DNA from: a virus
Reading direction: 5' to 3' (one strand)
Virus record (IMG/VR): IMGVR_UViG_3300030450_000645
Span: 1-26,990 of that record
Length of the DNA stretch: 26,990 bases
Below the pieces are notes generated by a model. That model saw nothing but the letters and a program-made list of their open reading frames with translations. It was not told where the DNA came from and did not search any database. This document shows positions 2,565 to 26,990 of this stretch, one piece after another; within the stretch, counting starts at the first letter, position 1; each line of letters begins with the position of its first letter. Position numbers and translations under genes: made by a program.

Positions 2565-3280
2565 GAAAGCATCCATACCAACAGCTTCTAGAAAAGAAGC
2601 GCGTCTGGACCCCAGTTAAAACTAGTAAAGGAAAGCTTAAAGATGGAGCAGAAGAAACCATCTACCGTGCTTTATCAGTACGTGTTATGGAGCTTCCAGT
2701 GGGGGATTTTATCCGAGAAGCAGTATCTGAACTTCCAGAAGCATCTAGAGAACTTCTACAGTCAAATGTAAAAGACGAGGAACGACATGACCTTGCTCTT
2801 CATTATGTCACTGAAGCTCATGGTGTTGATGAAAAAGCTGAGGCCGAGGCGCTCCGCTTACGTGATGCGTGGGTGGGACACCCCGATCACACTGTCCTTA
2901 AAGCATTGGTAGCTGAACGTGCAATATTTTTCGTTATTCTTCCCTTCTTTCGTTATTGTGGGGATTCTGGTCTTAGGACTGTCAGCGCCGACATTTCGAG
3001 AGACGAAACCATTCACGTATCCGCTAATAGCCTTGTATGTCGTGAGTTGGGCCTACGCCCTAGTCAATCTTTGGATAAACTTAGGAAGGCCACCATTAAC
3101 TGGATTTTTCAGCCCTTACGGAACAACACTACAGATCGTTATCTAAATAAGCAGTTCTGGTTGGATCAGTCTGATAACCTGATGTATGCTGGAAAGACGG
3201 AGGGTTTAGTTGACACTAAGAGGGCTAGAGTCCCTGCCTTCTTTGAGACTAGTAATTCTGACCTACCAAGCTATGCCTAA
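2561..3280 (+). CDS. nrdB: Ribonucleotide reductase class I beta (radical-generating) subunit, divergent
   Basis: The 239-residue product starts at the ATG that overlaps the alpha stop as ATGA; a TTG at 2546 would add five residues but is unlikely. It has the four-helix ferritin-like metal ligand pattern: E73-x-x-H76 (DEERHDL), E119 (AERAIFF), E149-x-x-H152 (DETIH), with E44 the best candidate for the first carboxylate. The residue seven after the first metal-binding Glu, tyrosine Y122 in E. coli NrdB, is L80 here, so a classical tyrosyl radical at that site is not possible. A penultimate Y238 could play the role of E. coli Y356, which relays the radical to alpha. It is much shorter than E. 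coli NrdB (about 375). This type was overlooked in P-SSP7 until reannotation, and is often labelled hypothetical. Metal identity (Fe, Mn or mixed) cannot be read from sequence. Confidence 0.85.
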   Translation: MRKHPYQQLLEKKRVWTPVKTSKGKLKDGAEETIYRALSVRVMELPVGDFIREAVSELPEASRELLQSNVKDEERHDLALHYVTEAHGVDEKAEAEALRLRDAWVGHPDHTVLKALVAERAIFFVILPFFRYCGDSGLRTVSADISRDETIHVSANSLVCRELGLRPSQSLDKLRKATINWIFQPLRNNTTDRYLNKQFWLDQSDNLMYAGKTEGLVDTKRARVPAFFETSNSDLPSYA

Positions 3281-3971: not shown

Positions 3972-4141
3972 TTCCTAATATTAGTGAGTCTCTTCTACAA
4001 TACTTAGAAGAACTCTATCCAGATAAGGCTCCTGATCTTAGTATGGAAGAGAAACAAATTTGGTTTAGTGCTGGTCAGGTGGCGGTAGTTCGTCATTTAA
4101 GGGATCAGTATAATCTCCAAGAGGAAACCAAATACAACTGA
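3968..4141 (+). CDS. Small conserved-looking phage protein (57 aa), function unknown
   Basis: This short gene starts on an ATGA that overlaps the stop of the preceding gene and ends 12 nt before the next ATG. The product begins MIPNISESLLQYLEELYP, has a loop with SMEEKQIWFSAGQ, and ends with a helix VAVVRHLRDQYNLQEE. The leucine/tyrosine-rich first helix and the IWFSAGQ...VVRHL second helix look like a folded two-helix protein and not random frame. Similar small proteins (helix, FPD/YPD, GQ...VVxxL) are, from memory, common just upstream of phage portals, but no function is known to me. The tight fit between two genes and the coupled start support translation. Confidence 0.72.
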   Translation: MIPNISESLLQYLEELYPDKAPDLSMEEKQIWFSAGQVAVVRHLRDQYNLQEETKYN

Positions 4142-4153
4142 GGTTAAATACTA

Positions 4154-4648
4154 ATGGGTTTTTGGTTACCGTTCACTATTGGACTAAGCGCAGCCGCCAC
4201 TGCTTATTCAGGTTACGCATCAGCTAAAGCTGCTAAAAGAGCAGCTGAAGAATCTCGTAGACGTACAGCTCAAGCAAGAGAAGCAGCTCAAGCGGAGCTT
4301 AAACAGATGCAGGCTGATGCTGCACAACGTCAGCAACAGTTCAATACACAAATAGCTGCTAGTAGAGAGGCTACAGCTGCCTCAGCCGCTGCTTCTGACA
4401 GAGCCGCTGCTCAAGCTGAAGCTCAGATGGCACAAACCCGTGCTTCATCTGCTTTATCTATTCACAATCAACAGCTACAAGCTTCTATAGCTCGAATGCA
4501 AAGTGCAGGGGCTCCTATTAAGAAAAAACGTAGAGCTAGATCTGGTACGCCTGAAAGTGAAAGAACTAAGTTGAGTATTGATTCAGGTCTTGGTATTGGT
4601 GGATCTGGTGATACTGCTTCAACATCGGGAGGATTAAATTTTGGCTAA
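4154..4648 (+). CDS. gp7.3-like tail/ejection protein candidate, Ala-rich with basic Gly-rich C-terminus
   Basis: The 164-residue product opens with a hydrophobic helix (MGFWLPFTIGLSAAATAYSG), then a long Ala/Gln/Arg helix (residues 25-125) of coiled-coil type. After that comes a basic IKKKRRARSG patch (about 121-130) and a Ser/Gly-rich end finishing TSGGLNFG. T7 gp7.3, encoded directly before the portal, ends in a basic patch, a short SL-x motif and GGGINI; the position and the layout of the end match (SG...KLSIDSG...GGLNFG). gp7.3 is a virion protein needed for adsorption or ejection. The internal virion protein gp14 also has an N-terminal membrane helix plus coiled coil, so that is an alternative, but a better gp14 candidate lies at 12192. 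It overlaps the portal start by 8 nt. Confidence 0.75.
   Translation: MGFWLPFTIGLSAAATAYSGYASAKAAKRAAEESRRRTAQAREAAQAELKQMQADAAQRQQQFNTQIAASREATAASAAASDRAAAQAEAQMAQTRASSALSIHNQQLQASIARMQSAGAPIKKKRRARSGTPESERTKLSIDSGLGIGGSGDTASTSGGLNFG
4628..4633 (+). promoter_or_regulatory. Shine-Dalgarno sequence deciding the TTG start of the portal gene
   Basis: GGGAGG(A) lies 7-8 nt before TTG at 4641, inside the end of the preceding gene. No ATG or GTG is available nearby that would keep the family's N-terminal residues (AEGRYLFLEPEK), so this strong ribosome binding site supports a TTG start. Confidence 0.65.
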
Positions 4649-6251
4649 AGAAGGTACTACTGCTGAGGGTAGGTATCTATTCCTTGAGCCAGAGAAAACT
4701 GTATATCTAGATCGAGGGGTTGAGTGTGCTAGATACACTCTACCTACCCTCATTACTGAGAATGATAAGAGTACAGGCAAGAATCTCTACACAAAAATTA
4801 ACACTACTTATCAAGGGCTGGGCGCTAGGGGTGTTAATAACTTAGCGAGTAAACTTTTGATCGCTTTGTTACCTCCTAACCAAGCGTTTTTTAGGCTTTC
4901 TGTAGATGATATGAAGCTCCAAAGGGAGCTAGAAGATTATAAAGAACTGCAATCAGAATTTGAACAACAGCTTTCTCTAATGGAGAGAGCAGTGATGAGA
5001 GATATAGAGGAGTCTGGAGATAGGACTGCTCTGTTTGAAGCTCTTAAGCACCTCATTATTAGTGGTAATGCTCTTCTTTATGTAACAGACCAAGGTACTA
5101 GAGTTTATCCACTTAAATCTTTTGTTCTTAGTAGAGATCCAGAAGGAAACATACTTGAAGTAGTAGTAAGAGAAGAAGTAAGTCCTGAAGTATTACCACC
5201 TGGAGTAGTACCTAAGAATGACTACGGTAAAAACACAGATAAAACTGTCTTTTTATACACCCGTATTACTTGGGATTACGACAAAGACAGATGTAACTGG
5301 CATCAAGAGGTATATGGAAAACCTTTAGGTCCAAGGGGTTCAGTACCTATTAATAAATCACCTTGGATTCCTCTCAGAATGTTCCGAGTGGCTCATGAAG
5401 CCTACGGAAGAAGTTATGTAGAAGAATTACTTGGGGATCTTAAATCTCTTGAGTATTTATCTAAAGCAATTGTTGAGGGTAGTGCAGCAGCAGCTAAGAT
5501 AATTTTCCTTTGTAACCCCAATGGAACTACTAGACCCGATTCTCTTGCCAGAGCTGCTAATGGTTCTATTGTGGCTGGCAATCCTAATGATGTAGCTCCG
5601 CTGCAAATGCAGAAACAGGCAGATCTGTCTGTAGCTCTACAAACCATAGCTCGTATAGAACAAAGACTTAGTTTTTCCTTCTTACTTAACAGTGCTATTC
5701 AGGCTGGTGCTTCTGGACGGGACCGAGTTACTGCGGAAGAGATCAGAATGGTTGCCCAGGAATTGGAGGCTGGATTGGGCGGGGTTTACTCCATACTTTC
5801 TGTAGAACTACAGCTCCCACTAGTCCATAGAAAGATGGCACTAATGGAGAAGAGGGGTAGCCTTCCTCGATTACCAAAGAATATTGTTACGCCTCGTATT
5901 ACTACTGGTCTTGATGCTTTAGGAAGAGGTAACGATAAAGCTAAGTTGATTGAGTTTATACAAACTCTTGCTCAGACTATGGGTCCAGAGTCTATGGCTA
6001 AGTACGTTAATAGTAGAGAACTAATCACCAGACTTGCTGCTTCTGATGGTTTAGAAACATACAAACTTATCAAATCAGATGAGCAATTAATGGAAGAAGA
6101 GCAGCAACAAGCTATGATGGCACAAGAACAAGCAGCGGCACAGGATCCTTCACAAGATCCAGCTAAACAAGCTGCTCTACTTAAAGCTGAAAATGACGCA
6201 GTCCGAACAGACCAAGAAATCAACCAGCAAGCCGAAGGTGGTGGTGACTGA
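4641..6251 (+). CDS. Portal (head-tail connector) protein, T7 gp8-like
   Basis: The 536-residue product has the same length as T7 gp8. Portals form the dodecameric ring at the capsid vertex through which DNA is packaged and ejected, and nucleate procapsid assembly with the scaffold. Family features: N-terminal AEGRYLFLEPEKTVYLDRGVECARYTLP, GARGVNNLASKLLIALLPPNQAFFRL (about residues 57-82), a central beta-rich region with YGRSYVEELLGDLKSLEYLSKAIVEGSAAAAK (254-285), and the helical RVTAEEIRMVAQELEAGLGGVYSILSVELQLPLV segment (362-395) typical of the T7 stem and wing. The C-terminal tail (after 470) is Gln/Ala-rich low complexity. It starts at TTG 4641 with an 8-nt overlap of the upstream gene. 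Its 3' end overlaps the next small gene by up to 59 nt. Confidence 0.94.
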   Translation: MAKEGTTAEGRYLFLEPEKTVYLDRGVECARYTLPTLITENDKSTGKNLYTKINTTYQGLGARGVNNLASKLLIALLPPNQAFFRLSVDDMKLQRELEDYKELQSEFEQQLSLMERAVMRDIEESGDRTALFEALKHLIISGNALLYVTDQGTRVYPLKSFVLSRDPEGNILEVVVREEVSPEVLPPGVVPKNDYGKNTDKTVFLYTRITWDYDKDRCNWHQEVYGKPLGPRGSVPINKSPWIPLRMFRVAHEAYGRSYVEELLGDLKSLEYLSKAIVEGSAAAAKIIFLCNPNGTTRPDSLARAANGSIVAGNPNDVAPLQMQKQADLSVALQTIARIEQRLSFSFLLNSAIQAGASGRDRVTAEEIRMVAQELEAGLGGVYSILSVELQLPLVHRKMALMEKRGSLPRLPKNIVTPRITTGLDALGRGNDKAKLIEFIQTLAQTMGPESMAKYVNSRELITRLAASDGLETYKLIKSDEQLMEEEQQQAMMAQEQAAAQDPSQDPAKQAALLKAENDAVRTDQEINQQAEGGGD

Positions 6252-8653: not shown

Positions 8654-9289
8654 ATGGCAACTACAAAACTACAAGCAGTTAACACACTTCTTTCAATTAT
8701 TGGTGAGGCCCCTTTAAACCAGCTCACCCCTCCTCTTACTGGGGACGCAGCTTTAGCAGAAAGAGTATTAGATGAAATAAGTACTGAAGTCCAAGGTGCA
8801 GGTTGGTCTTGGAACACTATGGTATATAAAGAAATACCTTTAGACGCTAATGGGCATTCTACTCTTGCTTCTAATACTCTTGCTGTTCGTTTCAATCCCT
8901 TATCTTACCCTTCACAGCGGTTTGTTTTACGCGGTACTAAACTTTTTGACCGTGTAGAAAATAAGTATGATTTAAGAGGAAGTTTAGGTGTAGCTCTTAC
9001 TGGTGGTACGAGTGATCTTATTGCAGAAATAGTAGAAGAGTTAGCTTGGGATGATATACCTGAAACAGGTAAAAGATATATAACAATTAGAGCTGGTAGA
9101 GTATTTGCTAATAGGGCTGTTACTTCTCAGAGTATAGAAAGTTATACATCAGAAGATGAAGAGAAAGCTCTTCAAATTTTAAAGCGTACAGAAGATATGG
9201 CTCAAAATCATAACTTTATTAGTGGTCCTGATGATTTATATGGAGGACGCGTACAAACAACATTTGGTCCTGATATTATTAACCGCTAA
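8654..9289 (+). CDS. Tail tubular protein A, T7 gp11-like (adaptor/gatekeeper)
   Basis: The 211-residue product matches the gp11 family (T7 gp11 is 196). It has an N-terminal helix KLQAVNTLLSIIGEAPLNQL (residues 5-24), ALAERVLDEISTEVQGAGWSWNT (33-55; family pattern A.R.L....REVQ..GW.FNT), and a C-terminal half with YITIRAGRVFANRAVTS and EEKALQILKRTEDMA. Twelve copies form the ring under the portal that joins head to the tail nozzle and carries the fibres. The gene begins 11 nt after the terminator hairpin, and its stop forms TAATG with the next start, coupling it to the nozzle protein. Confidence 0.92.
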   Translation: MATTKLQAVNTLLSIIGEAPLNQLTPPLTGDAALAERVLDEISTEVQGAGWSWNTMVYKEIPLDANGHSTLASNTLAVRFNPLSYPSQRFVLRGTKLFDRVENKYDLRGSLGVALTGGTSDLIAEIVEELAWDDIPETGKRYITIRAGRVFANRAVTSQSIESYTSEDEEKALQILKRTEDMAQNHNFISGPDDLYGGRVQTTFGPDIINR

Positions 9290-12192
9290 TGTCTAGAGAA
9301 CTTTTTAACCAAGTCATTGGCCCACTAAATAAGGGGGTCAACCAACAAGCAACTAGTTTCGTTTTACCTGGGTTTTCTAAAACTCTTGAGAACGGTAACT
9401 GTGATTTGGTAGAGGGTCTTAAAAAAAGATTAGGATCAGTACCACTTATAAAAATAGGAGAGAACGCTAAAGCTAATGGTTTAACTTTATATGATGGTCA
9501 TGGTACTCCTGGTAATAATTTAACTGACCCCATTAAATGGGATGAAGCTTGGTATTACGTTTACAACAGGAGTGACACAGAAAGATTTGTTCTAGTAGTA
9601 GGGGACGATAGCTCTACAGTATCAAAAACTTGTACTACAACTAACGGTAGCCCAACAGTTACTATAACTTCAGGTGGTGTTTCTGATCTTTTTGTTGGAT
9701 CTACTGTAAGTGGTAGCAGTATTCCAACAGGAGCAAAGATCTTAGAGATTGGTACTAACCAGATGACTCTGGATATGAACGCAGACAGTAATGCTGGTAG
9801 TAGTAAAACTTTAACGGTTACATCTAGTAAAACTTTTGTAACTGGAGTAGCAGATATTGAACCTATTAGTGGAATACTCCCAACTGTTGTACCCATACAA
9901 CAAGTCTTTGCTGGTATAACTACTACTAATCTTGAATATTTAAGAGGATCTGGTAGAGCTAGAGATAGGTTTAGGGCTACATCATTTCAAGATAATGTAT
10001 TTGTAACTAATATACAGAAAAAGTGTGAGTTCGATAGCTCAGAAACTTTAACTAGGTACAACATAGGTTACATAAGTAATAACTATGTACCAATTAAAGC
10101 TCAGGTAAATGTCAAACTTATTGACTATTCAACCAAATATTCAATAGATATTGAGCTTGATGATGGTACAACAATTAACGGAACACATACTACACCTACT
10201 CTTGCATCAGGAACAGCAGTTAGTACACAGACTATTGCAACAGATTTAAGAACAGACCTCTTAGCTGACCCCAACGCTGCTCAAATAACTGTTACTGCTA
10301 AGGATTCTCAATTACTTATAAGCCTTACTAATGCTTCTAGATCCATCAAAAGTTTTGTAACTTCTGACGCTAGAGGTAATACTTTGATGGCTGGTTTCTC
10401 TAATCAGGTCACCAGTATTCTTGATCTACCTACTACATCTTGGGAGGGTTACTCAGTTATTGTTGCTCCTGATGGTGCTGCTGGTGAAAGTTCTTATTAC
10501 TTAAAATTTAACGCAGAGAACGTAACTGCTAACGGTACTTATGGTAGAGGTTCTTGGGAAGAGGCTGGAGCTTGGGGAGCACCAGGTAAGATCGATCCAG
10601 CTACTATGCCTCACGGTTTTCTTTACTATAAGAACGCAAGCGGTTTAACTAGATTTAGCTTTCTACCAAAAGATGGTAGTACTTATACAGATGGAACAGT
10701 TTCAACTGTACTTAAAAAATGGACTGAACGGTTAGCAGGTGATGCAGAGAAGATGGAACCTCCATCGTTTATGGATAGAAAGATTACAGATATTGTGTTC
10801 TTTAAAAACCGTCTTGGATTCATAAGTGGGGAGCACGTCATACTCAGTGAAGCTGGAGCTTATTACAATTTTTGGATTGAATCAGCTTTACAGGTTCTAG
10901 ATACAGACCCTATAGATCTAACAGCAGTTAGTAACGACGTAGCAGTACTGAACTATGCTTTGCAGCAGCAGGATGAGTTAGTTCTGTTCTCTAATGAGAA
11001 CCAGTTCAGACTCTATTCAGGTGACAACGTAACGTTCTCTCCAGAAACAGCTTCTGTAGGTCGTATAAGTTCCATTAGTATGGAATCAAAAGTTAAACCT
11101 CAACAAGTTGGACCTCAAGTTATATTCCCTGTTAAAGAAGGTGACTTCACAGGGCTACATACTTTTATTACTACTGACCGTACTGTTGGTATTAACCTCG
11201 GACAAACTGCTGTTATAACAGAAACAGTACCAAAGTATATACCAAAAAATATTGATTCATTAGCAGTTAGTAGAACAGATCAGTATCTAATAGCTCTTAG
11301 TCAAGACGATCCAGATGCTTTATATGTTTACCAATTCTTCTGGGAAGCTTCTGCTGGATCCTTAAGTAATAAACAAAACGCTTGGAGTAAGTGGACGTTC
11401 CCTAACAAGAGTATTTATTGGTGTGATTTTGTTGAAGGGACATTGTTGAATGTAGTTAAGTACACAGAGAACGGCACTGTTAAATACTACCTAGAAGGTA
11501 TCAACGCTTCTAGACCTCCTCAAATTGAGCAAGATCTATTTCTATTAGACAGGCAGTTATCTAGCTCTATTACTACTAATCTAGGTGCTGTCACTTTTAG
11601 TTATAGCGGTCTTACTAATAAGACTACCGTTACTCTGCCCTACCACACAGTAAATCTGAGTCAGTTCATTGTTATCAAAAAGGATAAAACTGATGCTAAC
11701 GAAGCTGAAAAACGTTGGGTCGTGGCTGCAACTGTTCCAGCTGGGGTTAATTCTTTTGTTTGCGATAGCTTGGGCGATTTTAGTGGAAGCTCATGGGTCT
11801 TTGGTGAGAAATACACGTTCAAGTTTGAACCGCCTCAGCTCATGCCCTATTCAAGAACTGCGACTGACAACACTTTTATCGGTACTCGTACTGGTCGCTT
11901 GCAGTTACGATATATGGATGTTTACTACAATGATGCAAGGTACTTCACCGTAGAAGTGACTCCAGATTTTAGAGATAAGAAGACTTACGAATTTGACAGA
12001 CGAGATCCTCTCAACGCTAATATTATTTTAAGTCAGGCTTCATCTTTTGATGAGTCTAAATTTCGTGCATATATCCAAAGTAAGAACGACCAAGTTAAAG
12101 TAGAAGTAGTAAACGACAGCATAGATCAAGCTAAGTTCGTCGCTTTAGAATGGACTGGCTTGTACTTTGATGTAGCGAGGAAGTACGGTTAA
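9289..12192 (+). CDS. Tail tubular protein B (nozzle), T7 gp12-like
   Basis: The 967-residue product begins SRELFNQVIGPLNKGVNQQATSFVLPGFSKTLENGNCD, the conserved opening of gp12 nozzle proteins (I..L..GVSQQ......Q...Q.N...). Further family segments are ITDIVFFKNRLGFISGEHVILSEAGAYYNFW (about residues 500-530), DEIVLFS-like QDELVLFSNENQFRL (563-577) and a C-terminal YMDVYYNDARYFTVEVTP. It forms the hexameric nozzle at the tail tip. It is about 170 residues longer than T7 gp12. Part of the extra length is a Thr/Ser/Gly-rich beta module at about 112-178, of a type seen widely as an add-on in phage structural proteins. The start is a TAATG overlap with gp11. Confidence 0.92.
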   Translation: MSRELFNQVIGPLNKGVNQQATSFVLPGFSKTLENGNCDLVEGLKKRLGSVPLIKIGENAKANGLTLYDGHGTPGNNLTDPIKWDEAWYYVYNRSDTERFVLVVGDDSSTVSKTCTTTNGSPTVTITSGGVSDLFVGSTVSGSSIPTGAKILEIGTNQMTLDMNADSNAGSSKTLTVTSSKTFVTGVADIEPISGILPTVVPIQQVFAGITTTNLEYLRGSGRARDRFRATSFQDNVFVTNIQKKCEFDSSETLTRYNIGYISNNYVPIKAQVNVKLIDYSTKYSIDIELDDGTTINGTHTTPTLASGTAVSTQTIATDLRTDLLADPNAAQITVTAKDSQLLISLTNASRSIKSFVTSDARGNTLMAGFSNQVTSILDLPTTSWEGYSVIVAPDGAAGESSYYLKFNAENVTANGTYGRGSWEEAGAWGAPGKIDPATMPHGFLYYKNASGLTRFSFLPKDGSTYTDGTVSTVLKKWTERLAGDAEKMEPPSFMDRKITDIVFFKNRLGFISGEHVILSEAGAYYNFWIESALQVLDTDPIDLTAVSNDVAVLNYALQQQDELVLFSNENQFRLYSGDNVTFSPETASVGRISSISMESKVKPQQVGPQVIFPVKEGDFTGLHTFITTDRTVGINLGQTAVITETVPKYIPKNIDSLAVSRTDQYLIALSQDDPDALYVYQFFWEASAGSLSNKQNAWSKWTFPNKSIYWCDFVEGTLLNVVKYTENGTVKYYLEGINASRPPQIEQDLFLLDRQLSSSITTNLGAVTFSYSGLTNKTTVTLPYHTVNLSQFIVIKKDKTDANEAEKRWVVAATVPAGVNSFVCDSLGDFSGSSWVFGEKYTFKFEPPQLMPYSRTATDNTFIGTRTGRLQLRYMDVYYNDARYFTVEVTPDFRDKKTYEFDRRDPLNANIILSQASSFDESKFRAYIQSKNDQVKVEVVNDSIDQAKFVALEWTGLYFDVARKYG

Positions 12193-15826: not shown

Positions 15827-18800
15827 ATGGGCGCTTATTTTACAGACCGTCAAGGCAACACAAGATATGTAGCTGATGACGCTGAATATAAGAAATTAGA
15901 TGACGCTGAGTGGGGAGGTGGTGGCGATTCACCTAGTAGTGAGGAAAAGGGGTCTACTACTACTACTAAAGAAAAAGAAGAAAGTTCTTTAGATAAAACT
16001 ATTAGAGAAAACGATGAATATTTGAATCAGCCTTGGGCTCAGAAGGTAATGAAAGATGGTGCTTTAGGAAGGGTCCCTGATAAGTGGAGTGATGTAGGTA
16101 GTCAAATAAGACAAGGAGTTGCTAAAACTGTTCAAAAGGTTGCACCTTCTGATAAAAGAGCTGAAGCAATAGCTAAAAGAGAAGAACTAATAGAAGCTAA
16201 TAAAGCAGATGACCCGTTAGTTGAAGATGAAGTTCTTCCAGGTGCTTATAGAACAGTCCAGTCTGCTCTTGATGGTCTTGTCTCTTTACCTTTACAACTC
16301 TCAGAATCTGGTTATTTAGATTCTTCTTATGTAAATAGAAAGTTAGGTCTTGGTGGTTTTATTGATGCTCTTACTGGTGGACAACCTGATTGGGAGAAAC
16401 AGTTACACGAAAAGTATGAACTAAATCAGAAGGAGATAAAACAGTATGGTCGTGTAGATGGACAGCCTCTTGGTTGGAGAGAGGGTTGGTTAGGAGGTCA
16501 GTACCTCAGTAAAGACAGCGATTTCTATAAGAAGAACAAACCAAAATCTGAGATTACAGATTTAGGGGCTCAAATAGTAGGAGTTATAGGTACAGCAGGG
16601 GGTATAAGAAAAGGCCTTACTTGGTTAGGGATGGCTAGGACTGGTACAGCAGCGGGTGGAACCTTCAACGTTATGAAAGGTATCCCTACAACTGTTAACA
16701 AACCTGGATTCTGGACTAGTGCTGGCTTACTCTTAAGAGCCTCAGCTCCTGAAATGGCAGAGGAATTAGCTCTTTGGCCTCCTGAAATACCAGAACTGTC
16801 TTCAGGCTATGAAGAGCAATTAGAAATATGGAACAAAGCTGCTACGCCTAAAGATAAGTTAAATCTTAAGAGAGCCTTCTTAGCTGAAAATCCAACTGAG
16901 TACAACTACTACAAAGAGCAGACCCTACAGGCTCTTATGGGAGGAGCTATTGTTGGTGGTGGTAAGTGGGCTTATAACATTCTTTCTAATGTTTTAGACG
17001 TAAGTTGGACAGCTCTTAGAAATGTCAAACTTGGTGAAAAAGCTAGTAAGGCTTGGGATAATGCTTATAACAAATTCAAACCAGATATAGAGACTAACGT
17101 TAAAGGAGCTGTTGATGAAGGTATACAGCTAGAACTGAATCTAGGTATAGGGAAAACAACTACTGATTTTGATGTAACTGTAGGAAGGGATATACCTGAA
17201 ATAACAACTGGTGCCCGTGAAAATGCAGAAACTTTCCTAGTTAAAACAAAGAACGCTCTAGATGCTCAAGCTGATATATCTAAAAACGTAGAGATAGACT
17301 CTACTTCTATACCAGAACAAAGGGCTGCTCTTGTAGAGGAACTTAAAAGCGTTAAAAAGGATCTTAAAGTCAGTAGTGAAGCTTCCATTATTGCTAAGAC
17401 AAAACTTCTAGATAAAAGGGCTGCTGCTTATAAAGCTGCTCAAAAAGCAGATGAAGGCTGGCTTACAAAAGGTAAGGGTGCTAGAGGTGCTTCTAAAAAC
17501 GAAAGCAGAGTTAGAGAGCTTAATAAAGCTATAGCCAAAATGAAAAGGCTAGAAGAAATAGAAATTAAATTAGAAGAATTAGAAGCTAAAGAACTTGAGT
17601 TTATAGCTCAGAACTCTGCTTACCGTAACGCTCAGAGTCAGCAGTTAGAAGCCTCTAACGACTTCCAGAAGTTTATTACTGAAACACAGCAGCAGCTATC
17701 TAAAGAGGCTGATTTATTAGATGCTAGAAACGCAGCTGTCGATATGGATAACGTTAATAAAACACGTTTAGGAGAGGTAGTAGAACCAGACACTTATGGA
17801 ACTTCTAATACTGTTCTCCTTCATGGTGAGGTTAAAGCTCTACTAGATGAAGCTCAAGCTGCTATAGATAACAACCAAGTATCACCTGAGTTCTTAAGTG
17901 ATTGGATCAGAAGATTTGAAGAGGTTAACGTTACTGCTGTTGATGAGGGTGTATCAGCAGCTCCTATTAAAGCTGTAGGTTCACAACCAGCTCCAGATGA
18001 AGGACTCTTAGGACCAAAAACCTCTCCTACTGAGATACCTGTTCCTGTAGATAAGGATGGATTAGTAGATGATGCTTTGATTAATCAAGGTATAGATCTC
18101 TCTGATGAGATGCCTTTAAACGTTACTAGAAAAGCTGATAACGTTCTAGAGCAACTTCAAGAAGCTTTAGGAACTAATAAGCAAGCAAAAGGTATTGAAG
18201 CTCTTAATGAAATAGGAGATGACGTAGATCAACTTATTGAGAAACTAGACGCAGCTAAGAAGTTTGATGATGCTAACGGTACAAACACTTTTGAAGATGA
18301 ACTAGAGATATTCAGAGCTGCTAAAGCTTCAACATATACAGCAGATATGAGTGATCAAGCTTTACTTAAAGTAGTAAATGATCGAATAGTAAGAAATAAG
18401 AGTATAGATAGTATTTTATCTAAGGCTCTACTTGAGATGGGTCAATTTATTGATGATCCTCAAGGTGCTGCTCAATTATCCTACTTAGTTAAAGAGGGGA
18501 TGATTAATAGACAAAACGTTAGAAGACTCAGTTCTATACCACTTCAGTTGTCTCTTTTAGACGCTAACGTTAAGAACGCTATGTCTTCTTTACGTATTTA
18601 TCAGAACGTTAAAAGCGGTGCATCAAACGAAACTACTTTAGAAGCAGCAACAGCTCTAGCTTTAAACGATATTGATTTCTTAGTGAGATCTGTTAAAGCT
18701 GTTGATCCTCTTGCTCAATATTTAGGTACAGGTTTAGGACTATTCAGAAGAAAATTAAGACTTAAGTTTCCTACAAGAGCTGCAATTCTTGAAAGAATAG

Positions 18801-21688
18801 GTGAATTGAAACCTGATGAAAAATGGGGTGATGCTTATAAGAAAGCTAGATGGGAACTTATAGCTAATGAGTGGAACACAACAATAGCAAACCTACCTAA
18901 CCCTGAAGAGCTGCTAGATAAAATGTCTCACACAGCTAAAACAGCTAGTGAGCGTTTTGAAGCCACTATGGGTAACACTCTGAAGAAGCTGAAAAAAGGA
19001 GAAGCTCTCAATGGAGAAGAGATGGCTGATGCTATGTCTATTATGGACGCTGTCTACAAGTCAGGTGGTAACTGGAATAACTTAAACCAGATTGATAAGA
19101 CTTGGTCTGGAGTAGTGAATCAAATCATTACCAGTGGAACTATGAGTAACCCTCGTGGTCCTTTTGGTATTGTTGTTGCTGGTTTTTCTCAAGCTTTACC
19201 TACCCATATTTCTGGGTACGTTATGGGTAACATAACTAAGAAACTACTTAGATTTGCAGGTAGAGAGGAATTAGTAGAAGGAACAGCAAAGAGAGCTGAT
19301 CTTCAATATAAATGGCTTAAAGGCTACTTATATGGCTTTATGAACTCTTGGGATGGTTTCTCGAAGAGGATGCTATTCCCAGAAGCTCACCCAGACTACG
19401 TTAAGAACCCTATATCGTTACTAAACCAGCAAGCAAAGTTAGATGATTTAGCTGTAACTAAGTTCGATATTAAGACCCCCTTTGGTAAGTGGGCTGTTAA
19501 TAAGACTGACTTTGAAAAACCAGAGGTTTATAACCTGATTAACTATGGACGTGTGTGGATGAAATCTATGCACGATAACGCTATGAGTGGCTCTGACTGG
19601 GAAAAACTACCAGCAGCCATTAAAGGTTGGAGATTACCAGGAAGTAAAGAAGGCAGTAGAAGGGTTATTCCTGGTTTAGGTGCTCCTATTCAGTTAGGTA
19701 GAGAGCTTGGGTTTGGTAAAACTCCTTACTACGCAAAGGGTGAAGAACAGTCTATGACTGCTGTTTTGAAATCTCTTAGCTGGGGTGACTCCTTCTTTAC
19801 TGAAGTATCAGGTAACGCTTTTGCTAGTGCAACAGTAAGACAGCAAGTAGCAGAAGAAATAGCTGACGGTTTACTTAAACCTGAAAACGCTAAAGCAGAG
19901 ATAATCAAACGTCTTAATAAAAAGACTTCAGAACTATTTGAACCTATACACGCTGGTATAGATCAAAAGGTTGTTGGTTATCAAATAAGAGATAATCAAT
20001 TCCAAGCCTTTAAAGACTTCATCAACCTCACAGAAGAGATTACTGATGGTCCTATAGGTGATATGAAAAATGCTATAGATACTCTTAAAAAGAGCGATAA
20101 TCCAGCTTTATCGGGTTTTGCTACAACATTAATGCCTGTTACAACTTCAGCGTTTAACTGGCTTAAGAATGTAGTTCGTATTACCTCTGGTTATGAAGCC
20201 TTTAGGGGTGCTAAAGATTTAGCCCGTTTAGGAGCCAAAGTTACTAAAGATCAGGTTGGTAAGCACCTACCAGAAGAAGTAGTAGAGACTCTTAGAAAGA
20301 GTCCTATAGGTGTTAAGTGGTTAGAAGACGCTAAACAGTTTGAAAGTGTCTATCTACATTCAGATCCAATTATTAGGGAGAGAGCTCAGCAAGCTCTTGG
20401 TATGACTCTTGCTTTCCACTCAGCCGCTTTTGCGATTGTTTGGGGACTAGACGCTGCAGGTTGGGAGTCTACAGGTCCAATGACTCATACCTTTAGAGAA
20501 GCAAAAGGACTTAAGAAACCGTTCCATCTCAGGTTAGAAGTACCGTTTATGGACTTCCCTGGTATAGATGCTGTTGAAGTTCCATATATGTATTTAGGAG
20601 CTTTTGGAGGAACACTAGCTCTCCACACAACTGCTAGAGATCTTATGCAGTTTGGTAACGCAGATAGCGCTGGAGATATTGTGATGCTTGGTATAGCTGC
20701 TCAAGCTAGACAAGCTATGGAAATACCAACTCTTGCTGGTCCAGATAAAATTACTGATGCCCTTGCTAAAGCAGGTGACGGTAACCTTAAACCACTTCAA
20801 AGAATAATAGCTGAAGCTGTTTCTAAGGTAGGGTCACCTACTTTGGGTTATGAAAGAGATCTTGTAAGACTAATATTTAAAGGTAAAAAGGCGGGGGTAT
20901 TAGAGAACAAGTTTACACCTCAATACTATAAGAAAGGTAAGTGGCACGAAAACGTTGGTAACTTTGCTCACGGAGTAACAGGAACACTTATAGGTACTCT
21001 TGGTTATCGCTTTGAAGATACAGGAGTAGGACCACTAGTTGATTCTATAAGCAGTGTCATAGCTAACGACCCAACAATCTGGAAAGCTAGTCGTCAAGCT
21101 ATGCCTTTTGGTAAGCCTGGAGAAGTGATTGAGTGGAGTGATTTACCTCGATTTGCAATGCCTATAGAGTCCATTACTGGACGCATATTTCCAATTAATT
21201 CAAGGGTAGATGATGATAAAGTAAGGCAAGCTAGATTAGACAATTTAATCCCACCTATTGACCGTAACCTCTTCTCTAGTGAGAGTGATGGTCAGATTGG
21301 ACTCAGTGATACTGCTGTTAACGAACTAAATCATTTCTTGAATGAAGACGCTTTATTTATCAGCCCTTGGACAGGTAAAACTCACGTTGGTATCCACGCA
21401 TTTATCACAGAAATAGTGAATCGTCCAGAGTACAAACAATTAAGTGGTGCAGATGTAGTCAGTCCCTATAGAACTGGTAACTGGGATAGGAAAAACAGCA
21501 CCAGAGCAGATTGGATTAAGTCTCTAATTAGAAATCAGATTAATATAGTTAAATGGCAGTGGGTTGATGGTGAGGAATACAAACAACGTATTCCAGATCC
21601 AAAAGCTCCTGGTGGTTTTCGTGAACAACGTTGGTTTGCAGACCCAGAGCTGCGAGAACTCATTAACAGCCGCAAAAAGGACAACTAA
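15827..21688 (+). CDS. Giant internal virion/ejection protein, T7 gp16-like
   Basis: At 1953 residues this is the largest gene here, well above T7 gp16 (1318), which lines the ejection channel and enters the host. It has a GGAGG at 15813-15817 and the start follows the previous TAA directly. The N-terminus is a short acidic, Ser/Thr/Glu-rich segment, with no sign of the lytic transglycosylase domain that opens T7 gp16. Hydrophobic segments occur at about 246-262 (IVGVIGTAGG), around 370-385 and at about 1526-1545 (MTLAFHSAAFAIVWGLDAAG). A long Lys/Glu coiled coil spans about 500-640. An acidic, Pro-containing region follows, then a long helical C-terminal half. Position as the last and longest of the three internal protein genes, just before the tail fibre, is the main evidence. 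The stop forms TAATG with the fibre gene. Confidence 0.85.
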   Translation: MGAYFTDRQGNTRYVADDAEYKKLDDAEWGGGGDSPSSEEKGSTTTTKEKEESSLDKTIRENDEYLNQPWAQKVMKDGALGRVPDKWSDVGSQIRQGVAKTVQKVAPSDKRAEAIAKREELIEANKADDPLVEDEVLPGAYRTVQSALDGLVSLPLQLSESGYLDSSYVNRKLGLGGFIDALTGGQPDWEKQLHEKYELNQKEIKQYGRVDGQPLGWREGWLGGQYLSKDSDFYKKNKPKSEITDLGAQIVGVIGTAGGIRKGLTWLGMARTGTAAGGTFNVMKGIPTTVNKPGFWTSAGLLLRASAPEMAEELALWPPEIPELSSGYEEQLEIWNKAATPKDKLNLKRAFLAENPTEYNYYKEQTLQALMGGAIVGGGKWAYNILSNVLDVSWTALRNVKLGEKASKAWDNAYNKFKPDIETNVKGAVDEGIQLELNLGIGKTTTDFDVTVGRDIPEITTGARENAETFLVKTKNALDAQADISKNVEIDSTSIPEQRAALVEELKSVKKDLKVSSEASIIAKTKLLDKRAAAYKAAQKADEGWLTKGKGARGASKNESRVRELNKAIAKMKRLEEIEIKLEELEAKELEFIAQNSAYRNAQSQQLEASNDFQKFITETQQQLSKEADLLDARNAAVDMDNVNKTRLGEVVEPDTYGTSNTVLLHGEVKALLDEAQAAIDNNQVSPEFLSDWIRRFEEVNVTAVDEGVSAAPIKAVGSQPAPDEGLLGPKTSPTEIPVPVDKDGLVDDALINQGIDLSDEMPLNVTRKADNVLEQLQEALGTNKQAKGIEALNEIGDDVDQLIEKLDAAKKFDDANGTNTFEDELEIFRAAKASTYTADMSDQALLKVVNDRIVRNKSIDSILSKALLEMGQFIDDPQGAAQLSYLVKEGMINRQNVRRLSSIPLQLSLLDANVKNAMSSLRIYQNVKSGASNETTLEAATALALNDIDFLVRSVKAVDPLAQYLGTGLGLFRRKLRLKFPTRAAILERIGELKPDEKWGDAYKKARWELIANEWNTTIANLPNPEELLDKMSHTAKTASERFEATMGNTLKKLKKGEALNGEEMADAMSIMDAVYKSGGNWNNLNQIDKTWSGVVNQIITSGTMSNPRGPFGIVVAGFSQALPTHISGYVMGNITKKLLRFAGREELVEGTAKRADLQYKWLKGYLYGFMNSWDGFSKRMLFPEAHPDYVKNPISLLNQQAKLDDLAVTKFDIKTPFGKWAVNKTDFEKPEVYNLINYGRVWMKSMHDNAMSGSDWEKLPAAIKGWRLPGSKEGSRRVIPGLGAPIQLGRELGFGKTPYYAKGEEQSMTAVLKSLSWGDSFFTEVSGNAFASATVRQQVAEEIADGLLKPENAKAEIIKRLNKKTSELFEPIHAGIDQKVVGYQIRDNQFQAFKDFINLTEEITDGPIGDMKNAIDTLKKSDNPALSGFATTLMPVTTSAFNWLKNVVRITSGYEAFRGAKDLARLGAKVTKDQVGKHLPEEVVETLRKSPIGVKWLEDAKQFESVYLHSDPIIRERAQQALGMTLAFHSAAFAIVWGLDAAGWESTGPMTHTFREAKGLKKPFHLRLEVPFMDFPGIDAVEVPYMYLGAFGGTLALHTTARDLMQFGNADSAGDIVMLGIAAQARQAMEIPTLAGPDKITDALAKAGDGNLKPLQRIIAEAVSKVGSPTLGYERDLVRLIFKGKKAGVLENKFTPQYYKKGKWHENVGNFAHGVTGTLIGTLGYRFEDTGVGPLVDSISSVIANDPTIWKASRQAMPFGKPGEVIEWSDLPRFAMPIESITGRIFPINSRVDDDKVRQARLDNLIPPIDRNLFSSESDGQIGLSDTAVNELNHFLNEDALFISPWTGKTHVGIHAFITEIVNRPEYKQLSGADVVSPYRTGNWDRKNSTRADWIKSLIRNQINIVKWQWVDGEEYKQRIPDPKAPGGFREQRWFADPELRELINSRKKDN

Positions 21689-22011
21689 TGGCATACTCAA
21701 CCAGAACCTATACACCAGGTTCATCAACAACTACTTTTGCTTTAACTACCTCTGGTGGTGATCCTATTGGTTATATTAAAGAATCGGATATAAAAGTAAC
21801 AGTTAACGGAACTGAATATACCAACGCAGCTAGTGGTACTAATACATATCAAATATCAGGAACCAGTACAGTCGAACAGCCTAATGGAGGCAACAAAGCG
21901 CTACTGTTGTTTATACAGCTGGTTCTACTCTTACATCTACTGACCTTAACAACGCAGATAACCAGATTAGATTTGGTCTACAAGAGTTTTCTGATGATTA
22001 TGCAGCTTTAA
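21688..22011 (+). CDS. Tail fibre N-terminal virion-anchor fragment
   Basis: Residues 1-70 (MAYSTRTYTPGSSTTTFAL...DIKVTVNGTEYT...TYQISGTSTVEQPNGGN) form the N-terminal T7-tail-fibre domain that attaches gp17 to the gp11/gp12 ring. An AAGGA at 21677-21681 precedes the ATG with good spacing, and the start overlaps the gp16-like stop as TAATG, so this is a true gene start. After residue 70 the frame leaves the fibre sequence and encodes a leucine-rich run (ALLLFIQLVLLLHLLTL) before the stop. If translated as it stands, the 107-residue product would end in a chance hydrophobic helix. That tail is probably an artefact of the frame break. Confidence 0.6.
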   Translation: MAYSTRTYTPGSSTTTFALTTSGGDPIGYIKESDIKVTVNGTEYTNAASGTNTYQISGTSTVEQPNGGNKALLLFIQLVLLLHLLTLTTQITRLDLVYKSFLMIMQL

Positions 22012-22232
22012 CGTCTGGTACTGGAAATCTAGATGATATTGGCGGTTTTCTTGGTGGTTCAGATACTTGGGTAAGTAATAACTCTAAAGCCGCTACTACA
22101 GCAGCTATTGACGGTCAAATAGACGCTAAAGCAACAGCGAAAGTAAAAGACGACATAATCGCTACAGCTCCAGTCTCAATAGCAGATGACAGCCCTAGTG
22201 CTGGGAAGATTACTATTGCTGTCGATGCCAAG

Positions 22233-22879
22233 CTGACTGAACTCTCAACGATGGCTCAGAACACAGCTAACGCTTTAGCTGATCTGACACAAGCAGAAGT
22301 AGAAATATTAGATGGAGCCAGCGTTACTACAGCAGAATTAAACAGAGTAGATGCTACATCTAGTATTCAAACTCAGTTAGATTCTAAGCAAACTACTAAC
22401 GCTAAGCTCACTGAGCTAGGAACAATGGCTCAGGATACTGCTAATTCGTTAGCAGATTTAACGGCAACTGAAGTACAAATATTAGATGGTCTTACTCGTA
22501 CTACAAGTCAACTTAATTATGTAGATGCTACCTCAAGCATTCAGACACAAATAGATGCTAAGCAGCCTTTAGATGCTGAATTAACAGAGTTGGCAACTAT
22601 GTCAACTGCTACTTCTCAAGCGTTAGCTGATTTAACAGGACCAGAGGTAAACATTCTAGATGGTGCAACTCTTTCTACTACTGAATTAAATTACGTACAA
22701 AATGTATCGTCTGCAATACAAACGCAGTTAGATGCTAAACAACCTTTAGATGCAGATCTAACAGCTCTATCCAGTATGCAAACTGGGTCTGCAGCAGCTA
22801 TAGCTCTCCTTACATCAGGTGAAGTATCCATTCTTGATGGGGCTACAACCTCAACTAGTGAATTAAATACTCTTACTGG
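22233..22879 (+). repeat. In-frame tandem repeats of the tail fibre shaft
   Basis: Copies start at 22233, 22407, 22581 and 22758, spaced 174, 174 and 177 nt, the last one partial. Each encodes LTEL.TM...T..ALADLT..EV.ILDGA..TT.ELN.V...SS.IQTQLDAKQ.LDA. The protein is more conserved than the DNA, so these are old repeats under selection for a periodic shaft. After 22860 they give way to shorter units (STSELNTLTGL, STGELNKLDGV). Confidence 0.85.
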
Positions 22880-24524
22880 GCTCACTGCATCCACAGGAGA
22901 ACTAAATAAATTAGATGGAGTCAGTTCTACTAATACGAACTTAAACATAGTAAGTGGCATGACCAAAGCCACCTCTTTAACAGCAAATAGTAATAGTGAA
23001 TTTCCTACTTCCAAAGCGGTAGCAGATCACGTAACTGGGGCTGTAACAGCGGTTGGTGGTTTCGTTGCTATAGCAGGTCCAACTAACTTCAATGCTACTC
23101 AACCAGCTCAAGGTGTAGTTGTTAGTATCGGAGACGTAGGTTCAGGTTTTACTGTTTCCTCTCAAGAAATAACTATTACTAATGGAGCTGGTACTGGTAA
23201 TAACGTAAGAATAACTGGATTCCCCACATCATTAAATGGAACCATCGCTGATGATGTAGGTCTACAAGTAACGTCAGATAAGAATAATAGTACTAGCGGT
23301 TCTCCTAATGTTCATCGCTATGTATATCACAAAATATTAGCGAAAGAGACTGATGTTATTCAACTTTCAGATGATATAAACGACTTCAACGAAAGGTACA
23401 GAGTAAGTAACGGTGCTCCTTCTGGTACTGACCATGCTGGTGACCTTTACTATGACACTGGTTCTGACAAAATGCTTGTCAGGAACGCAGCTAATAATGC
23501 CTGGGAAGAAGTTCAATCTATTGGTGAGTTCTTTATATCTTCCTTTGGTGAAGCATTCGATGGAAGTCGTATTGACTTTACCTTATCTAATGCTCCTGCC
23601 AATGCTCAGCAGGTAATTCTGAGTATTAATGGTGTCATCCAAAAACCAAATTCAGGTAATAGTCGTCCATCAGAAGGCTTCAGTTTAAACGGTTCTACCT
23701 TACAACTACCAACAGGTTCTGGTCCTGCTGCTAATACTCCTTATTGGGTAATAGTTTTAGGTTCAACAGTAAATATAGGTGCTCCATCAGCAGGAACAGT
23801 AAACCTCTCCAAATTAGACACAAGCAATACAGGAAGTAATGGTCAGGTTCTATCCAAGAGTGGATCAACAGAAGGATTAACTTGGGTTGATGCCGCCTCT
23901 GAAGGAGAAGATGTTAAATCCACCACTAATGGTAACGAAGCAAATACTAAATTCCTACGAGCAGATGGAGATGGTACGTGTTCGTGGCAAGTACCTCCCA
24001 ACACTCAGGTAGGAGGAGCTACAGGTGTTGACTTTAACGATGATATAAAAGCACGTTGGGGTACGGGAAATGACTTAGAAATTTTCCACGACAATACAAA
24101 TCAAAAGAATGTAATTAAAAACATTAGTGGTTCTACTCTTCCGATAGAACTTGCAGCTCAGACTGTAAATATTCAAGGTGTAGCACAGTCAGCTTACTCA
24201 GCAAAATTCAGTGTTACAGGTGGCCAAGAACTTTACTTCGCAGGAAACAAAAAAGCGGAAACAGTAACGGGGGGATTCACGGTAACAGGAACTTGCACTG
24301 CAACCTCATTCGCAGGTGATGGTTCAGCCTTAACAGGAGTAAGCTCACCAGAAGTTTATGGATTTAATGCAAATGCTTCTGGTAACCTCATAGTCACGAC
24401 AACCAATGGTGGAAGTGATAATATTAGTAGTAGTGCTTACGCAGCATTTGAAGATGTATTCTTTGCGGCTAGTGGTTTTACCTTTAGCATTAACGCAAGT
24501 GGTAACCTAATCGCAACGATTTAA
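22251..24524 (+). CDS. Tail fibre shaft and distal part (fragment after frame break)
   Basis: The fibre sequence is open in this frame from 21885; the first usable start codon is the ATG at 22251, inside the first shaft repeat, so the start has no biological meaning if the gene was once whole. In order it has: a shaft of about three and a half 58-59-residue repeats (EVxILDGA..T..ELNxVxxxSSxIQTQLDAKQPLDA); TSKAVADHV...VGGFVAIAG; a beta-rich central part including RVSNGAPSGTDHAGDLYYDTGSDKMLVRN; SFGEAFDGSRIDFTLSNAP...LSINGVIQKPN; NTKFLRADGDGTCSWQV; VDFNDDIKARWGTGNDLEIFHDN, a motif of many marine phage fibres; and GDGSALTGV near the end. It ends with a beta-rich segment of paired ASGNL motifs. 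The fibre binds the host receptor. The downstream gene starts 3 nt after the stop. Confidence 0.75.
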   Translation: MAQNTANALADLTQAEVEILDGASVTTAELNRVDATSSIQTQLDSKQTTNAKLTELGTMAQDTANSLADLTATEVQILDGLTRTTSQLNYVDATSSIQTQIDAKQPLDAELTELATMSTATSQALADLTGPEVNILDGATLSTTELNYVQNVSSAIQTQLDAKQPLDADLTALSSMQTGSAAAIALLTSGEVSILDGATTSTSELNTLTGLTASTGELNKLDGVSSTNTNLNIVSGMTKATSLTANSNSEFPTSKAVADHVTGAVTAVGGFVAIAGPTNFNATQPAQGVVVSIGDVGSGFTVSSQEITITNGAGTGNNVRITGFPTSLNGTIADDVGLQVTSDKNNSTSGSPNVHRYVYHKILAKETDVIQLSDDINDFNERYRVSNGAPSGTDHAGDLYYDTGSDKMLVRNAANNAWEEVQSIGEFFISSFGEAFDGSRIDFTLSNAPANAQQVILSINGVIQKPNSGNSRPSEGFSLNGSTLQLPTGSGPAANTPYWVIVLGSTVNIGAPSAGTVNLSKLDTSNTGSNGQVLSKSGSTEGLTWVDAASEGEDVKSTTNGNEANTKFLRADGDGTCSWQVPPNTQVGGATGVDFNDDIKARWGTGNDLEIFHDNTNQKNVIKNISGSTLPIELAAQTVNIQGVAQSAYSAKFSVTGGQELYFAGNKKAETVTGGFTVTGTCTATSFAGDGSALTGVSSPEVYGFNANASGNLIVTTTNGGSDNISSSAYAAFEDVFFAASGFTFSINASGNLIATI

Positions 24525-24527
24525 AAA

Positions 24528-25376
24528 ATGGCAACTATTGACTTAGGTAAAATCAAACTAACGTGGAAAGGTACTTATGCAGGAGGAACCGCATATGTAC
24601 CAGATGACGTTGTTGAATATACCGACAGTGGTGTAACTTCGAGTTATATCTGTACTACTGCATCAACAGGAAACGCTCCTTCCTCTAGTGGAACAGTTCA
24701 TGGCTCATGGGCTTATATGGCAAAGGGTGGAGCGGGAACTCCTACAACTACAAGAGGAGATATAATTTATAGAGGAGCTAGTGCTGACCAAAGATTAGCT
24801 AAAGGAACCCAAGGACATTATCTCAAGATGGGTGCTAATGACCCTGAATGGGCTGCTGTCGCTGCTGATTGGGTAAAATTAGCAAGTGGTACAATTTCTG
24901 CTGGTGCTAGTACCGTCGATATTGACAATAAATTTGATAATACAACATACCGTGTTTATAAGTTATTTGTAAGTAACGTAACGCTTAGTGCTACTAATAA
25001 GGTGTATGTCAGATTTATAGGTACTGACGGTTCTGCTGACCAAAGTAGTAACTACAAATGGAACTCTTCTCACCCATATGGCACAAGCAGTCATAACGTT
25101 CACGGTAGCGGTTCTCAAACTTTTATACCTTGGGTTGGTGATAATAACCTAGATACTGGTTACTGCTTCCAGGGTGAAATGACGATCTTTGATCCCTATA
25201 CTGCTGTTGAGACTATCTGTAATTTTCACTCAAGCTTTTGGGGAGACAGTCAGTGGAATGGTCATATAGGAGGAGGTATGTATGATCAAAACGAAGCACA
25301 CAGAGGTATTCAGATACTTCCTAATTCAGGTACAATTAGTGGTGGTTACTACCAGCTGTACGGCTTAAAACACTAA
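24528..25376 (+). CDS. Tail fibre-associated protein with CBM-like N-terminal module
   Basis: The 282-residue product has three parts. Residues 10-65 (W13, GTYAGGTAYVPDDVVEY, YICT...GNAPSS...SWAYMAKGG) have the aromatic spacing of carbohydrate-binding modules of the CBM5/12 type and are common in marine phage fibre proteins. Residues 70-110 (TTRGDIIYRGASADQRLAKGTQGHYLKMGANDPEWA) are a linker module seen repeatedly in phage fibres. Residues 112-282 are a beta-rich domain with many aromatics, His and Asn, ending SGTISGGYYQLYGLKH, the ending typical of phage appendage proteins (IxGxxxLYGxK). It is probably an adhesin tip or a fibre subunit that binds cell-surface sugar; receptor and stoichiometry are unknown. 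It starts 3 nt after the fibre stop. Confidence 0.75.
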   Translation: MATIDLGKIKLTWKGTYAGGTAYVPDDVVEYTDSGVTSSYICTTASTGNAPSSSGTVHGSWAYMAKGGAGTPTTTRGDIIYRGASADQRLAKGTQGHYLKMGANDPEWAAVAADWVKLASGTISAGASTVDIDNKFDNTTYRVYKLFVSNVTLSATNKVYVRFIGTDGSADQSSNYKWNSSHPYGTSSHNVHGSGSQTFIPWVGDNNLDTGYCFQGEMTIFDPYTAVETICNFHSSFWGDSQWNGHIGGGMYDQNEAHRGIQILPNSGTISGGYYQLYGLKH

Positions 25377-25388
25377 GAGGTTTAACCA

Positions 25389-25610
25389 ATGGTTAAAAAA
25401 TTCGTTGACAACGCTAGTGGTCAGTCATTAGTAGATTGCACAGCAGAAGAAGAAGCTCAAATCACACAAGATGCTTCAGACTTTGCAGCCCTGGAAACAG
25501 CACTTTCTAATGCTGCAACTAAAAAAGCAACCGACACTGCTAGCGCAAAGACAAAACTAAAAGGTCTTGGTTTAACTGATGATGAATTAGAAGCCATCTT
25601 AGGAATCTAA
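25389..25610 (+). CDS. Small fibre-cluster protein (73 aa), function unknown
   Basis: An AAGAGG at 25375-25380 lies 8 nt before the ATG, so this gene has its own ribosome binding site. The product is acidic in the first half (CTAEEEAQITQDASDFAALETAL), then Ala/Lys/Thr-rich, and ends TKLKGLGLTDDELEAILGI. The ending (KLK.LGLT.DE..ALLG) is typical of short proteins sitting next to tail fibre genes in many phages, some annotated as fibre assembly helpers. It is helical throughout with no cysteine pair or signal peptide. A chaperone role is only a guess from context. Its stop forms TAATG with the next gene. Confidence 0.7.
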   Translation: MVKKFVDNASGQSLVDCTAEEEAQITQDASDFAALETALSNAATKKATDTASAKTKLKGLGLTDDELEAILGI

Positions 25611-26990
25611 TGGGATTAACTAAAGTAAATTCAGGCGGTATAGAAGACGGTTCTATCGTCAATGCTGATATCAAATCTGATGCGGCTATAGCCAAATCTA
25701 AACTTGCAAACTTAGATATCGGTAACGCAGATATAAACGCTTCAGCAGCTATAGCAACTTCAAAGATTTCTGGCCTTGCTGCTTCTGCTACTACAGATAC
25801 TACTAACGCTTCTAATATTTCGTCTGGAACATTAGCAGCAGCAAGAGTCGATAACTTAGCTGCAAGTAAAATTACATCTGGAACTATTGCGACTGCAAGA
25901 CTTGGGAGTGGAACAGCAGATAATACAAAATTCCTAAGAGGAGATGGGACTTGGCAAGTTGTTGCAGTTCCATCCTTAGACGCTCCAACAATTACAGGAA
26001 CTTTAATTATCGCATCATCTGAAGCTGTAACGCATACAGTTAGCAACTATTCCGATGATGTTACTTATACCTTTACTCCTACTAATTGCACAATTGGAAC
26101 AGTAAATACATCAGGAGAATTTACAGTAACAGCAGCAGGTAGTGGAGTTCCTTCATATATAGTTAAAGCAACAACTGCATCTCTAGGTTTAGATGATTCA
26201 GGCAATACAACTAAAACCTTTACTCTAAAATTATCAGCACCGAGCTTAAGCAGCCCTGCTGATGCTGCACCAAATACAAACGTAGCTTATACAGTTACAT
26301 CAAACGATGCTAATGACGATAAATTAGTTGTTGATTTTGGTTCTTCAAATTTCACTATTCAAAGCGTTTCTGTAGGTTCTAGTTCTAAAGTTGGAAACAC
26401 AGCAGAACTAACAGGATTTACTACTAATAACCCTGTTCTTACAGTTCAATTTACAGCAGTAGCAACTTATTCAGTAAAAGCTAAGGCTGTAAAAATTGAT
26501 AGTAGTATTCCTGAATCAAATTACTCAGCAACCGATAGTATAACAATTTTTGATACTCGTTATGCTGCTACAGGACCAGACGGAGCTGCTGGAGTAACTG
26601 ATGGAGATTATAAATACCATAAGTTCACAGCAACAAAAACAGGCTCTGCTGGATTTGTTGTATCTACAGTAGGTACAGGATCATACGCTAACCAACTTGA
26701 ATATTTAATTGTCGCTGGCGGCGGTGGTTGTTCAGGTGACCTTAGTGGTGGCGGTGGCGCTGGTGGCTATCGCTTACTTACTGGTAAAAGTATTACAGCA
26801 GGAAACCATACCGTAACTGTCGGTGGCGGAGGTGCTGGTACTACAGGTAACGATGTTCACGGTACCAAAGGATCAGATAGTACGTTCAATAGCGATTCCG
26901 CTACTGGAGGAGGTAGAGGTGTTGCTGAATGCGGAACTTCTGCTACTGATGGAGAAGGTGGTTCTGGAGGAGGAAGCTCCAACTGTCCCA
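25610..26990 (+). CDS. Second tail fibre-like adhesin with glycine-rich domain (3' end outside window)
   Basis: The frame is open from the ATG at 25610 (TAATG overlap) to the last base, giving 460 codons. Residues 1-100 are fibre-shaft-like repeats (NADIKSDAAIAKSKLANLDIGNADINASAAIATSKISGL, ISSGTLAAARV, ITSGTIATARL) ending NTKFLRGDGTWQVV. Residues about 115-330 form two or more Thr/Ser/Asn-rich beta sandwiches of cadherin- or Ig-like appearance. From about 340, HKFTATKTGSAGFVV...NQLEYLIVAGGGG starts a glycine-rich domain (GGGGCSGDLSGGGGAGGYRLLTG...NHTVTVGGGGAG) as found in marine phage and bacterial adhesins; such Gly-rich parts can fold as polyglycine sandwiches with variable loops for receptor binding. 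Cysteines at about 371, 442 and 458 are unusual for this window. The lack of a stop means the distal end is not seen. Confidence 0.8.
   Translation, partial: MGLTKVNSGGIEDGSIVNADIKSDAAIAKSKLANLDIGNADINASAAIATSKISGLAASATTDTTNASNISSGTLAAARVDNLAASKITSGTIATARLGSGTADNTKFLRGDGTWQVVAVPSLDAPTITGTLIIASSEAVTHTVSNYSDDVTYTFTPTNCTIGTVNTSGEFTVTAAGSGVPSYIVKATTASLGLDDSGNTTKTFTLKLSAPSLSSPADAAPNTNVAYTVTSNDANDDKLVVDFGSSNFTIQSVSVGSSSKVGNTAELTGFTTNNPVLTVQFTAVATYSVKAKAVKIDSSIPESNYSATDSITIFDTRYAATGPDGAAGVTDGDYKYHKFTATKTGSAGFVVSTVGTGSYANQLEYLIVAGGGGCSGDLSGGGGAGGYRLLTGKSITAGNHTVTVGGGGAGTTGNDVHGTKGSDSTFNSDSATGGGRGVAECGTSATDGEGGSGGGSSNCP

Follow-up and report, generated by a model that had tools for sequence, protein, structure and literature searches.

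The tail-fibre gene is written in two reading frames

Can a tail-fibre gene that is split over two reading frames still give rise to a complete fibre, or has the gene lost DNA? The question is raised by the window, a stretch of 26,990 nucleotides (positions 1 to 26,990 of IMG/VR record IMGVR_UViG_3300030450_000645) that represents a contig of a marine T7-like phage and in which open reading frame (ORF) analysis revealed such a split. The frame encoding the anchor is open from 21667 to 22011, with an ORF that begins at ATG 21688, and the second frame, offset by one base and open from 21885 to 24524, holds the remainder of the fibre. The two frames overlap only at 21885-22011, so that the switch must fall inside this interval, and conservation with relatives placed it at 21893/21894. 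Both the open-frame map and the alignment of relatives agree with a preliminary description of this DNA, which had assigned the anchor and the remaining fibre to different frames with a switch at 21885-21900. The same description had calculated that one added base would give a single open frame of 945 codons (plus the stop), and this is correct, since positions 21688-24524 comprise 2,837 nt, or 3 x 945 + 2, one base below a multiple of three. The gene as written consists of the following parts.

21688..21893, plus strand: 5' tail-fibre fragment with the T7-type anchor domain residues 1-69, read from ATG 21688 (identity to relatives)
21893..21894, plus strand: joint at which relatives hold 58 nt more (61 in L010), coding 19 residues (MAFFT alignment, edge analysis, pairwise alignments, tblastn)
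21894..22011, plus strand: out-of-frame extension of the anchor frame (ORF list; stop at 22009-22011)
21894..24524, plus strand: remaining fibre, carried by the second frame (VVYTAGSTLTSTDLNNADNQIRF..., with its stop ending at 24524; open frame 21885-24524, PHROG tail-fibre families)

The product of the ORF that begins at ATG 21688 (MAYSTRTYTPGSSTTTFALTTSGG...) is truncated to 107 residues and ends at 22011; past residue 69, it showed no convincing similarity to the relatives. In the distal frame, no start codon occurs before ATG 22251, which has no evident Shine-Dalgarno sequence, and a product begun there would be without the anchor. The distal frame is stop-free for 2.6 kb and has the usual codon-position composition, which indicates that the break is recent or artificial. 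Within the shaft, positions 22251-22900 contain a unit, 'ALADLT..EV.ILDGAT.TT.ELNYVD..SSIQTQLDAKQ', in several copies that have diverged too far to be reported by Tandem Repeats Finder.

Relatives carry an additional segment at the joint

A search of viral contigs with the first 71 residues retrieved 16 contigs, 15 of which are clear relatives, and the isolate Prochlorococcus phage P-RSP2 was added, giving a set of 16. Residues 1-69 of the window share 84-91% amino acid identity with the ten closest relatives and 70-75% with five others. The anchor and the shaft are encoded in one continuous open frame, and extra DNA is present at the joint, in every one of the 16 relatives whose sequence spans the site (P-RSP2 and 15 viral contigs). 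A MAFFT alignment of 16 sequences revealed a single gap in the window, between 21893 and 21894, which amounts to 58 nt with respect to 14 relatives and to 61 nt with respect to L010; its position is ambiguous by at most 2 nt. Independent pairwise alignments gave an insertion of length 1 mod 3 in 16 of 16 relatives, and when the fibres of the relatives were compared with the window by tblastn, the matches jumped from residue 69 to residue 89 with a change of frame (for example, residues 1-69 and then 89-862 for L001/G001). The lost protein segment resembles VVLNAGVTGTVILERTTAIQ in the relatives. It is still present in L001 and L004, the nearest sequences over the 1.5 kb just upstream (91-97% nucleotide identity), and is also carried by a 17th contig (L030), whose visible sequence starts a little upstream of the site.

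As 58 equals 3 x 19 + 1, one event accounts for both the missing residues and the change of frame. Every relative found, with 58 or 61 nt more, agrees with the initial proposal that a deletion of 3n + 1 nt trims the anchor domain and at the same time puts what follows out of frame. The size of that deletion had been underestimated at about nine residues or 28 nt, as the relatives show 58 nt (19 residues and one base). Similarly, the expectation that 25-35 nt are normally present was right in that all relatives have an extra segment, but its length is 58-61 nt.

Neither recoding nor a single-base error explains the break

Programmed ribosomal frameshifting could in principle link the two frames, which are both open and overlap across 21885-22011. 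None of the three marks of a programmed -1 frameshift, namely, a slippery heptamer, a downstream stimulatory RNA structure, and a conserved layout, was found. There is no X_XXY_YYZ heptamer within the frame overlap, the RNA downstream does not exceed its shuffles in stability (z of 0.50; 133 of the 200 had an equally good or better fold), and the two-frame layout occurs in 0 of 16 relatives. Furthermore, a ribosomal shift could not supply the 19 conserved residues that were lost. Taken together, these data make recoding extremely improbable. An equally improbable reading is a single-base (homopolymer) sequencing error within a naturally short linker. Such an error would account for the restoration of one open frame of 945 codons by a single base, but all relatives are 58-61 nt longer at this site, and a homopolymer of at least five bases is absent nearby, AAA being the nearest run of identical bases. 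The relatives and the lack of a homopolymer exclude a single missing base, in line with the earlier opinion that a plain homopolymer error was less likely than it first appeared. The deletion proposal would have been contradicted if relatives had shared the short linker in one continuous frame, with a single A missing here; a short linker was observed in none of them.

The lost segment belongs to a T7-type anchor domain

The Pfam family PF03906 (Phage_T7_tail) was matched by 15 of 15 relatives, with a best E value of 2.1e-9; this count includes matches with E up to 1, and L001 scored 20.4 bits, below the curated 25.2. The broken ORF of the window did not match PF03906. With 58 nt absent, the window does not encode a complete anchor and the distal fibre in one frame, and judged from its sequence the gene is a broken member of the T7-type tail-fibre family. 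A profile of the relatives matched 8i4m, the fibre anchor of cyanophage P-SCSP1u, with an E value of 5e-6, and matched the T7-type fibres 8e4g and 8dsp weakly. In this weak profile alignment, the lost VILERTT strand of the relatives aligns with the IELRRVT strand of T7-type fibres.

A jelly-roll anchor followed by a helix was predicted for the relative L001. Its AlphaFold anchor model, which is weak (mean pLDDT of 52), has strands at residues 69-72 and 80-86 and then a helix at 103-129. The top Foldseek match of this model was the 8i4m fibre chain (E value of 1.6e-4), and a second structure comparison (VIA) placed 8i4m, 8dsp, and T7 gp17 (7boz) among the better rows; T7-like fibre anchors, including 7boz and 8dsp, were found at Z scores of 5-7, mixed with other beta-sandwich proteins. 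According to this low-confidence model, the lost residues 70-88 would span two predicted beta-strands, including the IELRRVT equivalent. The preliminary claim that a strand of the anchor is missing is thus supported by the profile alignment for the IELRRVT-type strand, but the model suggests, with low confidence, that two strands are lost. The model of the truncated ORF of the window itself was of too poor a quality for interpretation (mean pLDDT of 56, pTM of 0.28). In P-SCSP1u, the jelly-roll and the helix dock the fibre trimer onto the adaptor and the nozzle (PMC10575957), and for T3, PMC5345008 cites temperature-sensitive gp17 mutants whose particles have no fibres and are not infectious. 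A protein made from the window allele would probably be unable to form a proper anchor, and it would have neither shaft nor tip.

The remainder of the contig is intact

All other genes of the window that are covered by relatives stay in one frame, which argues against a contig that is generally rich in errors. The virion genes of interest are the following.

8654..9289, plus strand: tail adaptor (tail tubular protein A type), intact (PF17212, E = 4.4e-34; single frame versus relatives)
9289..12192, plus strand: tail nozzle (tail tubular protein B type), intact (PF25675, E = 2.6e-142; single frame versus relatives)
15827..21688, plus strand: large internal virion protein, intact, 1,953 amino acids, directly upstream of the fibre gene (comparison with relatives)

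The adaptor and the nozzle, to both of which the fibre anchor docks in related tails, are thus encoded intact, and the last 1,381 residues of the large internal virion protein are 96% identical to those of the relative G001. Between 20200 and 23280, the nearest relatives change at the fibre gene, from L001 and L004, which are 95-97% identical in the virion gene upstream, to a mosaic of best matches from the fibre gene onward, as expected of fibre module exchange. Two more fibre-like ORFs follow the fibre gene, at 24528-25376 and 25610-26989; the latter has a match to PF21722, a glycine-rich domain, and is cut off by the end of the contig.

Two of the sequences used for comparison have irregularities of their own. 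P-RSP2 (L055, HQ332139.1) itself appears frame-broken when compared with positions 1161-3277 and 9289-12189 of the window: its ribonucleotide reductase large subunit is split in two, the small subunit changes frame, and the nozzle gene is split into PRRG_00029 and PRRG_00030. The nozzle and the reductase subunits are single ORFs in the window and the relatives. G003, a 57-kb viral contig from which L003 and L054 derive, contains two major capsid genes (4133-5533 and 47812-49218) that are 78% and 77% identical to that of the window, so that it probably consists of two joined phage genomes or of more than one genome length.

Origin of the joint

We propose that an ordinary T7-type fibre gene of a P-RSP2-like marine podovirus would have lost 58 bp inside its anchor domain. 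The loss at one illegitimate joint would remove 19 residues, corresponding to two predicted jelly-roll strands, and shift the frame, and the gene as written would then yield a 107-residue truncated anchor with no attached fibre. Whatever its origin, the change is very probably a disabling deletion of a T7-type fibre gene, and the broken arrangement would have no function. The break, its size, its absence from the relatives, and the homology of the anchor are shown by the data, whereas we infer that function is lost and how the joint arose.

At the cut, the sequences of the two deletion edges have 2 nt in common at most, and comparison of non-overlapping stretches near the edges revealed only unaligned shared words of at most 8 nt. 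Slippage between long direct repeats was rejected on these grounds. In the absence of a repeat of k-mer size at the edges, a simple assembler collapse is also unlikely, and the joint was probably present in some molecule or read. Slippage across a hairpin was likewise rejected: the segment showed no unusually stable DNA fold in four relatives, and Tandem Repeats Finder reported no tandem repeats. The joint was found in no other viral contig, in a search from which near-identical records, and hence further copies, may be hidden. Exact window words taken from elsewhere in the fibre had no match in the search set, which thus contains no near-identical genome, and no relative was found among the genome contigs searched.

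We consider it somewhat more probable that the joint stems from a chimeric molecule or read, formed during library preparation or assembly, than from a rare defective genome, because a fibreless genome should not reach high frequency and the contig is otherwise undamaged. The less likely of the two origins, although a real possibility, is that illegitimate recombination, acting where fibre modules are exchanged, truly deleted the segment from a phage genome that replicates, this minority defective genome perhaps being packaged with fibre proteins from a co-infecting intact phage. The edges have no assembler-size repeat in common, the region recombines, as reflected in the fall of relative identity at the fibre gene and the patchwork downstream, and the rest of the contig is clean, all of which would fit a true deletion; however, strong selection is expected against a fibre-null genome, and the joint was seen in no other contig, with the reservation on hidden near-identical records given above. 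We therefore lean towards a chimeric or minority molecule rather than a fixed allele. A circulating lineage that is kept with an anchor-deleted, fibre-null allele and adsorbs via co-infecting phages or the small downstream fibre-like ORFs appears very improbable.

We thus regard the break as a commonplace disabling deletion, or an artefact, that affects a T7-type fibre gene and involves no new mechanism. The significance of the case lies mainly in quality control, as a gene for host recognition is cut short by the loss of 58 nt although the contig is clean elsewhere. Because this loss hides the anchor from Pfam, an automatic pipeline would annotate the phage as fibreless or its fibre as two genes. 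This is also a clear case in which comparison with relatives tells a deletion from recoding.

Comparison with known tail fibres

The fibre of P-RSP2 (PRRG_00025, AGF91536.1, HQ332139.1) resembles that of the window in that its gene lies directly after that of the large internal virion protein and encodes the same anchor and shaft, with 74% nucleotide identity within the first 424 bases. Unlike the window gene, it is one continuous frame of 1,093 residues in which the segment is present. The fibre of P-SCSP1u, gp28 (8i4m), has an anchor that is homologous across profile positions 1-125, but gp28 is intact and its sequence covers the segment absent from the window. The N-terminal domain of T7-type gp17 (PF03906; 7boz, 8dsp) gave fold matches to the model of the relative, and its IELRRVT strand and helix entry align at profile positions 78-122, whereas the broken ORF of the window no longer matches this family.
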